DNA of 64,000 nucleotides from Promicromonospora iranensis (GTDB taxonomy: Bacteria > Actinomycetota > Actinomycetes > Actinomycetales > Cellulomonadaceae), in NCBI RefSeq assembly GCF_028994805.1, contig NZ_JAJQQP010000003.1:281145-345144 (forward strand). The letters are read 5' to 3'. The position numbers and the translations under genes are program-made. Below are positions 15,411 through 55,837 of the stretch, piece by piece. The notes below the pieces were generated by a model. That model made no database searches, was not told the origin of the DNA, and saw nothing but the letters and a program-made list of their open reading frames with translations. The first letter of the stretch is position 1; each line of letters begins with the position of its first letter.

Positions 15411-15478
15411 CCGCTTCGAGGTCTAAGTTTCTCCGCCCTGAAACGTTTCAAAGCGGAGAAACTTAGACCTCGAAGGGG
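15411..15478. repeat. Long palindrome (family D)
   Basis: A 68-bp near-perfect palindrome: 22-bp perfect arms (15414-15435 and 15454-15475; left arm begins CTTCGAGGTCTAAG) around a central TGAAACGTTTCA that is itself palindromic about the same centre. Only three base pairs in the whole structure fail. It lies between two convergent genes and has no T-tract, so it could act as a two-way transcription stop or a cruciform. Confidence 0.9.
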
Positions 15479-15531: not shown

Positions 15532-15575
15532 CAGGAGTGGTCTCTTCATCGGGTTCGATGAAGAGACCACTCCTG
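15532..15575. repeat. Long palindrome (family E)
   Basis: Perfect 20-bp arms (15532-15551 and 15556-15575; left arm begins CAGGAGTGGTCTC) with a 4-nt GGTT loop, 53 bp beyond the preceding palindrome and 21 bp from the mqo stop. The two neighbours have unrelated sequences. A terminator for the convergent mqo transcript is plausible. Confidence 0.9.
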
Positions 15576-24001: not shown

Positions 24002-24073
24002 CGGGTGGTCGGCAATACGTCAGGTGATCGGCAACTCGGATTGCCGATCACCTGACATTCTGCCGACCACCCG
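24002..24073. repeat. Long palindrome, family A, copy 1
   Basis: A 72-bp palindrome with 31 of 36 pairs matching (outer arm CGGGTGGTCGGCA, inner arm GTCAGGTGATCGGCAA). It begins 32 bp after the siderophore gene and ends 123 bp before the start of the frameshifted DUF559 gene. It shares the GTCGGCA...CGTCAGGT core with copies at 25149, 25797 and 43706. Confidence 0.9.
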
Positions 24074-24196
24074 ACCTCTCGCCGAACACCCGGGTGTGGT
24101 GCTGTGAGTGCGACCACAGGCGTGTCAGTTCGAGGCCCGTGCACAGATGGCGTGCCAGGAGCCCCACGCGAGCCGGATCTGCGCCACGGTCTCCGT

Positions 24197-25170
24197 ATGG
24201 ACCAGTCCGAGATCCTCATCGCACGGGAGCACGACCGAGAGGCGCTACGCAGAGCACTCCGGGACAAGAACGTCGAGAAGGTTCGCCGGGGTGCCTATCG
24301 CGACAGACCGGTCACCACCGGTGACCGGTATCGCGACGCGACGGACCGCGCTGTCGCTCGTGTCGTCGCGGTCGGCACACAGCTGCGCCGCGCGTGGGTG
24401 AGCCACGAGTCGGCCGCTCTCCTGCACGGGCTGCGCCTGTGGCAGCTGCCGGAGCGCATCCATGTCATCCAGCGGTACCGGGCGTCCTCGGCGTCGGCCC
24501 GCGACATCGCGCGGCATCGCCTGACGGTCGGCGCCCACGAGGGACCACCGTCGACGGCGTGGCGGTGACCAGCCTGGAGCGCACCGTCGCGGACTGCTGT
24601 GTCTCGCTGCACCCGTTGCCCGCGCTCGTCGTCGCGGACCATGCGCTCGCGCTCGGGATGGACCTCCCGGCCGCCCGCGAGTCGGTGATGAGCATGCGTG
24701 ACGTGCGCGGCCGCCGCCGGGCGCTGCTGGTGCTCGAGCTGGCGGACAGAGGTGCGGAGTCCGCGTGGGAGACCTGGCTCCGGTACCTGGTGCTGCGGGC
24801 GGGCCTGCCTCGCCCGGTCACACAGCTCCGGGTCAGCACTCCCTATGGTGAGTTCCGGGCGGACCTGGGCTGGACGGCGTTCCGGCTGCTCGCCGAGTTC
24901 GACGGGCGCGTCAAGTACGTCCCCGGCGCGCTCGGCGCCGGGCACGACGCCGGACGCGCGCTGTTCGACGAGAAGCGCCGCGAGGACCAGCTCCGGGAGG
25001 AGCGTTGGGGAGTGGTGCGCGTGACGTCGTCGGACGGCGCGGGCCCCGCCCTGGCCCGGATCCTCGGACACGTCCCGGACGAGATCCGCGCAAACCTCCG
25101 CCCGCTCCGCCAGCTCCCGCCCCCGGCGCCCGCGGCAGGCCGCACGAATGGTCGGCAGAACGTCAGGTAG
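24197..25170 (+). pseudogene. AbiEi-like/DUF559 nuclease gene with a frameshift
   Basis: The N-terminal frame from ATG 24197 encodes an AbiEi-like winged-helix region (EILIAREHDREALRRALRDK, then VSHESAALLHGLRLW) and stops at 24568. From about 24540 the homology continues one frame away (TTVDGVAVTSLERTVADCC), ending in a DUF559 PD-(D/E)XK nuclease: EFRADLGW, LAEFDGRVKYV and a final Lys/Glu helix. One lost G in the GAGGGACC stretch near 24536 explains the break. Restored length would be about 324 aa, like the intact homologue at 41685-42572. The last residues and TAG stop are encoded by the downstream palindrome. A sequencing error is possible. Confidence 0.75.
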
Positions 25171-25212
25171 TCGGTAATCCGGGGTACCGAACACCTGACG
25201 TTCTGCCGACCA
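25149..25212. repeat. Long palindrome, family A, copy 2
   Basis: A 64-bp palindrome with perfect 20-bp outer arms (outer sequence TGGTCGGCAGAACGTCAGGT) and a 6-bp inner arm TCGGTA/TACCGA. It overlaps the 3' end of the frameshifted DUF559 gene, whose TAG stop (25168-25170) lies in the left arm. Confidence 0.9.
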
Positions 25213-25796: not shown

Positions 25797-25862
25797 GTGG
25801 TCGGCAGAACGTCAGGTGGTCGGTAGTTCGAACTGCCGACCACCTGACCTTCTACCGACCAC
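25797..25862. repeat. Long palindrome, family A, copy 3
   Basis: A 66-bp palindrome centred on TTCGAA with only three failed pairs (left arm contains GTCGGCAGAACGTCAGGTGG). A further half copy (ACCGACCACCTGACGTTTTA, from 25854) continues beyond it, so the site looks like one and a half units. It lies between the VOC gene and the convergent oxidoreductase gene. Confidence 0.9.
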
Positions 25863-41627: not shown

Positions 41628-41690
41628 CGTTGAGTGCTGGGTATTTGTGGGTTCTAGCCGCTAGAACCCACAAATACCCAGCACTCAACG
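41628..41690. repeat. Long palindrome, family B, copy 1 (perfect)
   Basis: A 63-nt palindrome with 31-bp perfect arms around a single central base (arm starts CGTTGAGTGCTGGGTATTTG). It separates convergent leuS and the DUF559 gene, and contains the latter's stop codon (41685-41687). It should act as a strong hairpin in either transcript. Confidence 0.95.
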
Positions 41691-42572
41691 TTCGAGTAGG
41701 GCGCGACGCTTGCGGAGGGCGGCGCGGATCCTGGCGATCAGACGTTCGGGGTAGCGGATCACGTCGTCCGCAGTGGCCGTGATGATCAGCCATCCGGCGT
41801 CCTCAAGGAGCTGCCGGCGCTCCACGTCACGACGCCAGGTCGCCTGGTCTGTCCGGTGATGATCACCGTCGTACTCGACGGCGATCCGAAGACGCGGATA
41901 CGACAGATCGGGGAGGGCGAGGAACCGGCCCGCGTCGTCGAACGCCGGAACATTCACCACCGGCTCGGGCAGCCCGGCGTCGATCACCAGCAGCCGGAGC
42001 TGCGTCTCCATCCATGAGTCGGTTCCTGGCCGGACAAGGTCGGCCGCTTCCCGGCACAGGCTGAGCCCTCTCATCTTGAAGGTCTCGTGCATCAGAAATC
42101 GCAGCGCACCCAAGGTGGTCGCAGGGTTCTTGCGGCGTGTCATGGCGTCCCCGAGCCCGACGACGCTGTCCCGGGTCAGCCTGTGCGACACCTGGAGCCA
42201 GGTCTGCGGCGCCGACGTGATCCGCAGGCCGAACCGCTCGATGACGTCGAGGCGCTTCTGCCCGCAGAAGTGTGCCGTGACCGCATATCTTTGGGCCCGC
42301 TCACCACGGCGTGGTGTCACGATATGAATCGCGTGATCGTCCTCGAGCTGCCACGGGACGTCGACGCCGAGGAGCCGTAGCGCCGTCGTACGAGCGAATG
42401 CCGCATTCGGGTGCACAACCCGCGCGATCGCCCGGCAACGATCGATGAGTGACGGGTTGGCGTCGCAGATCCGCACGCCGGACGTCGGGGCCAGGAACCG
42501 GCTGTGCCGCAGAGCGTGTCTGCTGACGCCACGCGCGGGCGCTTCAGAAACCGTGAAGATGTTGGATGTCAC
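41685..42572 (-). CDS. AbiEi-like/DUF559 endonuclease-like protein
   Basis: A 295-aa protein. The N-terminal half resembles AbiEi-type antitoxin/regulator proteins (RTTALRLLGVDVP, HIVTPRRGERAQ, then ITSAPQTWLQV), and the C-terminal 110 residues are a DUF559 domain, a Vsr-like PD-(D/E)XK fold: D222 in LALPDLSYP, E233-Y-D235-G with H238, and a final DVERRQLLEDAGW helix-strand. No toxin partner lies next to it. The gene lies between two copies of the same palindrome and ends inside one. Function unknown; a DNA-cleaving role is an inference. A homologue with a frameshift is at 24197. Confidence 0.82.
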   Translation of the reverse strand: MTSNIFTVSEAPARGVSRHALRHSRFLAPTSGVRICDANPSLIDRCRAIARVVHPNAAFARTTALRLLGVDVPWQLEDDHAIHIVTPRRGERAQRYAVTAHFCGQKRLDVIERFGLRITSAPQTWLQVSHRLTRDSVVGLGDAMTRRKNPATTLGALRFLMHETFKMRGLSLCREAADLVRPGTDSWMETQLRLLVIDAGLPEPVVNVPAFDDAGRFLALPDLSYPRLRIAVEYDGDHHRTDQATWRRDVERRQLLEDAGWLIITATADDVIRYPERLIARIRAALRKRRALLER

Positions 42573-42632
42573 GCCTTCATAGTCGAACGCACCCGTAGCC
42601 CTTGCTTGCTATCCACAGCCCACGTCGCACGT

Positions 42633-42701
42633 CCTCGTTGAGTGCTGGGTATTTGTGGTTTTGGGCCGCTGGAGCGCACAAATACCCAGCACTCAACGAG
42701 G
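42633..42701. repeat. Long palindrome, family B, copy 2
   Basis: Perfect 25-bp arms (42633-42657 and 42677-42701) with the same GTTGAGTGCTGGGTATTTG core as the copy at 41628 and a 19-nt diverged loop. It lies between divergent genes, 60 bp upstream of the DUF559 start, where a terminator is not expected. Confidence 0.93.
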
Positions 42702-42791
42702 AATTGGTGGGTGGTGCGGGAGGGGCAGCGGCGGCGGGTACCGAAGAGCGAGCGGGTCAGCTCGGTTTCGCCGTCCGGTTCCCCGCGCGGA

Positions 42792-43705: not shown

Positions 43706-43769
43706 TGATCGGCAGGTCGTCAGACGGTCGGCACCTCGGAGTGCCGACCATCTGACAACCTGCCGAACA
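43706..43769. repeat. Long palindrome, family A, copy 4 (solo)
   Basis: A 64-bp palindrome with four or so failed pairs (core TCGGCAGGTCGTCAGA and inner GGTCGGCAC/GTGCCGACC). It fills the gap between convergent degV and hydrolase genes, some 18 kb away from the other family A copies and with no DUF559 gene directly attached. Confidence 0.88.
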
Positions 43770-55751: not shown

Positions 55752-55837
55752 CGAACGTAGGCTTGGTCGCTCTTCGAACGCGAACGTAGGGCTGGTCGCT
55801 CCATGAGTGCCCACAGAACGACCAGCCCTACGTTCGC
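55752..55837. repeat. Inverted repeat with an extra direct copy (family C)
   Basis: Perfect 19-bp arms (55780-55798 and 55819-55837; GCGAACGTAGGGCTGGTCG) with a 20-nt loop. An imperfect direct copy of the left arm (CGAACGTAGGCTTGGTCGCT) precedes at 55752-55771. It lies between divergent genes, so it is not placed as a terminator. Confidence 0.88.

Follow-up and report, generated by a model that had tools for sequence, protein, structure and literature searches.

A DUF559-type nuclease gene between two copies of a dispersed palindrome in Promicromonospora iranensis, a candidate REP-like unit

In the open-licence literature searched, mostly titles and abstracts, the dispersed bacterial palindromes for which an enzyme is known have so far been those of HUH transposases, the REP-associated tyrosine transposases (RAYTs) of repetitive extragenic palindromes (REPs). 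As far as the excerpts consulted describe them, RAYT genes are flanked by two REPs, enzyme and palindrome are cognate and their abundances are correlated (PMC2817692), and the repeats are dispersed outside genes, with several families in one genome (PMC2817692, PMC3733652, PMC8266576). Here we describe a 295-aa nuclease gene that lies between two copies of one palindrome in a stretch of 64,000 nucleotides from Promicromonospora iranensis (contig NZ_JAJQQP010000003.1, positions 281,145 to 345,144). This whole stretch is called the window, and coordinates without a contig label refer to it. We hypothesize, with a probability of roughly 60%, that the locus is a REP-like unit in which a two-domain nuclease is coupled to dispersed extragenic palindromes, each nuclease lineage having its own palindrome family, through a mechanism of cutting and repair. 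The association of nuclease and palindrome is well supported, and we infer from it that the palindromes are bound, cut, repaired and spread. Three features form the locus:

41685-42572, minus strand: open reading frame (ORF) of the 295-aa nuclease, GTG start (ORF list)
41628-41690, no strand: family-1 palindrome at the 3' end of the nuclease gene, holding its stop (inverted-repeat search)
42632-42702, no strand: family-1 palindrome 5' of the nuclease start (inverted-repeat search)

The initial annotation described a DUF559 gene ending in a perfect 63-nt palindrome with 31-bp arms and starting about 60 bp from a second palindrome with the same arm, and both descriptions are accurate. The TGA stop falls within the 3' palindrome, which consists of 63 nt with two 31-nt arms, 100% complementary, and a spacer of 1 nt. 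The upstream palindrome has two 26-nt arms, also 100% complementary, around a spacer of 19 nt, and lies 59 nt from the nuclease start. The arm GTTGAGTGCTGGGTATTTG is common to both. The neighbouring genes are leuS (end 41619) and degV (start 42807).

This layout is not confined to one gene. Protein and profile searches of the 5.84-Mb genome (G000) found five nuclease genes: that at 41685-42572, a second one in the window called module 1, G000:C26:292539, G000:C26:234525 and G000:C4:46613. Each is bracketed by palindromes of one family, and that family differs from gene to gene, as had been noted for the two modules of the window, whose palindromes belong to families 1 and 2. The earlier argument that two such cases speak against chance therefore stands as regards chance (34 hairpins with a score of at least 16 in the real 456-kb contig, none in one second-order Markov shuffle), but the count is five of five genes and the palindromes are dispersed repeats. 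No same-family palindrome pair was found around L321 and L322, two profile hits without the nuclease part.

The arrangement recurs among relatives. The closest match with a name, at 96% identity, is from P. iranensis. A nuclease match at E <=1e-5 was present in 48 of the 59 genomes searched, our own included, and two palindromes sharing at least 12 nt occurred at 60 of 193 nuclease loci (37/71 in the family, 19/28 in the genus). The 193 loci include same-genome repeats (e.g. L066/L146, L067/L147), and their 5' side was measured from the tblastn match, so that some 5' palindromes were missed (e.g. at L005). When limits were instead based on genes, 67 of 178 distinct intact proteins had same-family palindromes on both sides, with 56/106 in the relatives set and 11/72 in the named set. 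Among 476 control genes on two contigs of two genomes the only match was module 1 itself, and in the named loci, from which alone the second control was drawn, none of 335 neighbouring genes had paired same-family palindromes; control genes were called by a simple codon-bias method. These control genes led us to discard chance and explanations by terminators alone. The position of the stop codon is also recurrent: at 41 of 58 paired loci, the start of the 3' palindrome falls in the interval from -60 to +20 relative to the stop. This count, like the pair, split-domain, foot-motif and HUH analyses, excludes L066 and L067.

The survey also yielded two separate observations. A nuclease on a contig labelled as an Acidobacteria metagenome-assembled genome (L145), which is possibly misbinned, is 50-53% identical to mycobacterial ones and has paired palindromes. 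L093, L109 and L162, two of which are Brevibacterium loci, share one 42-nt palindrome, identical in all three, close to the start of the nuclease gene, and none was found 3' of these genes.

If each nuclease has its own cognate hairpin, as the initial annotation suggested, then nuclease clade should predict palindrome family, and this is what we found. The 58 paired loci gave 1653 pairs, all of which were compared, with relatedness expressed as normalised bit score and sharing as at least 12 nt in common. Palindromes were shared in 20 of 34 pairs scoring at least 0.6; the figures were 3 of 16 for scores from 0.4 to 0.6 and 5 of 1603 for lower scores. Palindrome sharing and nuclease relatedness were correlated across genomes with a Mantel r of 0.57, which none of 2000 permutations reached, so the absence of correlation that would have spoken against the suggestion is not seen. 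Within one genome, none of 22 nuclease pairs shared a palindrome. The clade correlation and this lack of same-genome sharing support the cognate hairpin, and from them we infer physical recognition. A shared palindrome is lacking in 14 close pairs. Thirteen of these join members of different subclades (L149 with the other family-1 orthologues, 3 pairs; L003, L266, L278 and L289 with L287, L254 and L292, 10 pairs), and the remaining one is L136-L137. Splitting the protein at residue 180 in 57 loci gave a higher partial r for the N-terminal part (0.35, 0/2000) than for the nuclease domain (0.10, 1/2000), and removal of the family-1 and family-4 clades left 0.30 vs 0.10; both the Mantel and the split-domain tests leave phylogeny in.

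Two nucleases of one genome (G003), L287 and L289, are 67.7% identical and have unrelated palindromes whose longest shared word is 7 nt. They are a good pair for finding what sets specificity.

The palindromes themselves are dispersed, numerous and nearly fixed in length. Genome-wide copies were counted for families 1, 2 and 4 and for a family of genome G034. At up to 3 mismatches the core arm of family 1 is matched 66 times on the forward and 64 times on the reverse strand of the 5.84-Mb genome (7 and 4 for the reversed-pattern control), family 2, that of module 1, has 26/28 (control 0/0), and family 4, that of the L003 nuclease, has 22/20 (control 0/0) and none in 46 genomes outside the genus. 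The nuclease of G034, a genome from another genus, is 44% identical and has a different palindrome, with 19/21 matches in its own genome and no more than 2 per strand in any of the other 58. Of 39 copies mapped on two contigs for all five families, 33 lie outside predicted genes, on contigs of which 83-85% is predicted coding, and 12 lie between convergent genes. Copy length is 60-62 bp: 61 (21 copies) or 62 (6 copies) in family 1, 62 in family 2 (21/21) and 60 in the G034 family (17/17). The outer 19-22 bp of the arms are mostly conserved and the centre is more variable, a pattern that is partly an artefact because copies were located via their arms (allowing up to 5 mismatches in each, with some of the family-1 copies picked up by exact 16-mers). 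Among the matches listed, the palindromes at G000:C23 269373, 296558 and 324853 have no counterpart at the aligned site of G012:C30. A 'foot' motif (either [CT]GAG or CGAA within the outermost 12 nt at the start) occurred in 30 of 58 loci vs 44 of 249 inner windows, a comparison uncorrected for relatedness that we did not use.

The 295-aa protein combines an AbiEi-like DNA-binding domain (about residues 1-181) with a Vsr/EDxHD-like nuclease domain of I-Bth0305I type (about 184-295). Its fold neighbours are AbiEi and Rv2827c for the N-terminal part and Vsr and I-Bth0305I for the catalytic domain, which has a Vsr-like fold with acidic active-site residues. In Pfam it matches DUF559 (E 6.6e-5, over that family's cut-off) and, overlapping this, the MTES_1575 nuclease family (E 2.5e-9, just under the cut-off). 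The catalytic residues are conserved among intact proteins of paired loci.

The closest working model for the nuclease-palindrome system is the REPtron. As in the partial descriptions of that unit, the gene here lies between two copies of its cognate palindrome, the palindromes are dispersed outside genes, their abundance partly follows the presence of the enzyme, and several families occur in one genome. The protein, however, is AbiEi-Vsr-like and not an HUH tyrosine transposase: the HUH motif (H-hydrophobic-H) is absent from the 295-aa nuclease and was found in 0 of 57 intact proteins from paired loci. The repeat is one long symmetric element of 60-62 bp, whereas the REP is short with a GTAG-type head; the arms compared for three families start GTTGAG, GGTCGG and CCGAGAAG, and none has such a head. 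Because the motif is missing in all 57 proteins and the head in the arms compared, the system is not a RAYT. The EDxHD/I-Bth0305I nucleases share the Vsr-like fold and the acidic active-site residues. Unlike theirs, the gene here sits alone between leuS and degV, its DNA-binding domain is AbiEi-like, and it lies between two whole presumed sites; since the presumed site, the palindrome, is not interrupted, this is not a classical homing endonuclease gene. The likeness to AbiE type IV systems is the AbiEi-like DNA-binding domain, which in this case is fused to a nuclease, and the palindromes are dispersed through the genome. No nucleotidyltransferase toxin gene adjoins the 295-aa nuclease, whose neighbours are those named above, and the locus is therefore not an AbiE toxin-antitoxin pair. 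The literature searched contained no paper tying DUF559, AbiEi or Vsr-like nucleases to dispersed palindromes, and a term search of PMC12306157 (RepRanger) returned neither 'RAYT' nor 'nuclease'.

We propose that two monomers would bind the two arms of the 60-62 bp palindrome via their AbiEi-like N-terminal domains. Each monomer would thereby bring a Vsr/EDxHD-type nuclease domain onto the symmetric element, and the element would then be cut or nicked. Repair off another copy would keep the arms alike and spread palindromes at a low rate, and the same repair could allow the flanked nuclease cassette to invert or to collapse to a single palindrome.

The leuS site in Promicromonospora provides candidate traces of such events. 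The nuclease beside leuS has one orientation in G000, G012, G005 and G009 and is inverted in G006. On its far side lies degV in G000, G005 and G006; in G009 no degV was found over a distance of 9 kb. In G008 a lone family-1-like palindrome lies between leuS and degV with no nuclease gene, and is probably the residue of nuclease loss. A palindrome is present at this site in G007 and, as judged by eye, a short remnant in G004. From the inverted copy and the solo palindrome, the cassette appears to rearrange at its palindromes. In G022, which belongs to another genus, a 61%-identical relative occupies the same place beside leuS, which argues that the nuclease is old there.

Palindrome type also tends to follow the resident enzyme. 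Family-1 arms are of type A (TATTTG) or type B (TTTCGCCC), and the type of the resident nuclease predominates in four of the five Promicromonospora genomes with a close orthologue (at least 75% identical). Forward copies of types A/B are 47/3, 61/1, 17/4 and 31/54 in the type-A nuclease genomes G000, G012, G009 (83% complete) and G005, and 3/44 in the type-B nuclease genome G006. The broader family-1 pattern has 60, 69, 18, 87 and 52 forward matches in these five genomes, and at most 5 per strand outside the genus.

Several results weigh against our hypothesis. The genome's five nuclease genes are not all intact: module 1 is frame-broken, its profile match at G000:C23:305353-305763 containing one internal stop, and the frame of the fifth gene (L319, G000:C4:46613) continues through the 3' palindrome as a 535-aa ORF, so that its C terminus may be decayed. 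No AbiEi profile match was obtained for L005, one of four nucleases scanned. Paired palindromes are absent at the threshold used from 111 of the 178 nuclease genes, and in the named set they occur in 0 of 20 Bifidobacterium loci and in few Mycobacterium-type loci. Target-site duplications of 2-9 nt did not exceed shuffles (22 G000 family-1, 6 G012, 19 family-2 and 17 G034 copies), and comparison of G000:C23 with G012:C30 gave no clean insertion junction, the flanks being too diverged to place ends. Part of the clade correlation reflects common descent, because the family-1 orthologues all adjoin leuS. Finally, G005 has a type-A nuclease and more type-B than type-A copies, and copies can be abundant where a close orthologue is absent. 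There the A/B forward counts are 6/38 in G008, 5/24 in G003, 0/30 in G011, 7/3 in G001, 8/4 in G002, 0/4 in G007, 0/2 in G004 and 0/1 in G010; the broader pattern gives 47, 33, 18, 15 and 20 in the first five of these and 0, 2 and 1 in the remaining three. Persistence of the palindromes therefore needs no resident nuclease. Arm pairing compared by eye between genomes with and without the nuclease showed no consistent difference (G003, without an orthologue, was as good as G000, and G008 was poorer) and is not used as evidence.

The strongest alternative is a transposition like that of REP and RAYT, in which the nuclease would act on a single-stranded hairpin during replication and move the palindrome by strand cleavage in the manner of TnpA-REP. 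At several variable columns the two sides of the palindrome match each other above shuffles (family 1: 13, 24, 26; family 2: 10; G034: 25-27), and the lack of target-site duplications agrees with what the part consulted of PMC2817692 states for IS200/IS605 elements. The matched columns could reflect a hairpin or cruciform, but also template-switch correction or the kinship of copies, which can mimic covariation, and the centre is poorly self-complementary in many copies. The HUH motif is missing from all 57 proteins, and the catalytic domain resembles those of Vsr and I-Bth0305I, which cut duplex DNA. We consider this alternative unlikely. More doubtful still is that the palindromes are operators, bound at its own promoter and elsewhere by an AbiEi-type regulator whose nuclease domain has another role. 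One palindrome does lie upstream of the nuclease start, and the fold neighbours AbiEi and Rv2827c each bind inverted repeats of 23 bp in the promoters of their own genes, according to the part consulted of PMC7319586. However, the second palindrome often lies at the stop codon, and 12 of the 39 mapped copies are found between convergent genes; the catalytic residues are conserved, and leuS and degV take the place of a toxin partner.

A role in defence, with the nuclease attacking incoming DNA and the chromosomal palindromes acting as self markers or decoys, is very improbable. AbiEi profiles belong to a defence library and nuclease folds of this sort are common in restriction, but the adjoining genes are leuS and degV, and defence by itself leaves unexplained why the gene is bracketed by its own palindrome, often with the stop inside. 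Least credible of all is that the palindromes act independently of the enzyme, as terminators or nucleoid sites, and that the nuclease lies between them by accident: their extragenic position and persistence in nuclease-less genomes would fit, but the pairing was seen in 0 of 335 neighbours and in no non-nuclease gene of 476, and palindrome follows nuclease clade.

If the cut-and-repair unit that we prefer is real, an unrelated nuclease has acquired the layout of the RAYT system by convergence, the uncharacterised DUF559/MTES_1575 family with an AbiEi-like domain gains a role, and many natural pairs of an enzyme and a 60-bp site become available for reading out DNA recognition. A bolder extension is that Actinobacteria hold a second, independently evolved class of REP, in which an antitoxin-type and homing-endonuclease-type nuclease copies a 60-bp palindrome by cutting and repair, the palindrome being target, border and trace; we offer this tentatively and would sooner expect it to fail than to hold.

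The window contains a further module and more palindromes, and no Rfam match at gathering scores:

24002-24073, no strand: family-2 palindrome upstream of the module-1 nuclease (inverted-repeat search, 91%)
24197-24568, plus strand: module-1 nuclease, N-terminal piece, frame broken after it (within ORF 24104-24568; first ATG by eye)
24394-25170, plus strand: module-1 open frame with the C-terminal nuclease piece, stop in the 3' palindrome (ORF list, protein and profile search)
25149-25212, no strand: family-2 palindrome at the 3' end of module 1 (inverted-repeat search, 93%)
25797-25862, no strand: additional family-2 palindrome (inverted-repeat search)
43706-43769, no strand: diverged family-2-like palindrome (aligned site in relative G012 without palindrome)
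15411-15478, no strand: family-3 palindrome distant from its nuclease (arm like those flanking G000:C26:234525, L005)
55780-55837, no strand: family-5-like palindrome distant from its nuclease (arm like those flanking G000:C4:46613, L319)

Module 1 repeats the geometry of the intact gene, as the initial annotation held, with its C-terminal frame stopping in one palindrome and a second copy upstream, in a nuclease that is not intact because its reading frame is broken. Related genes whose frame is open and whose palindromes belong to the module-1 family are L269 (G005), L291 (G009) and L279 (G010). Beside the family-3 copy lies a palindrome with 20-nt arms (15532-15575), and the aligned site in G012 is a family-5-like palindrome. 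Outside the window, three palindromes at G000:C23:34285, 56559 and 392516 have arms like CGAGGTAGTC that fit none of the five families; they may represent a family that has no nuclease in this genome. The nuclease L258 of G022 is flanked by a comparable arm, CCGAGGTAGAGCCCC.
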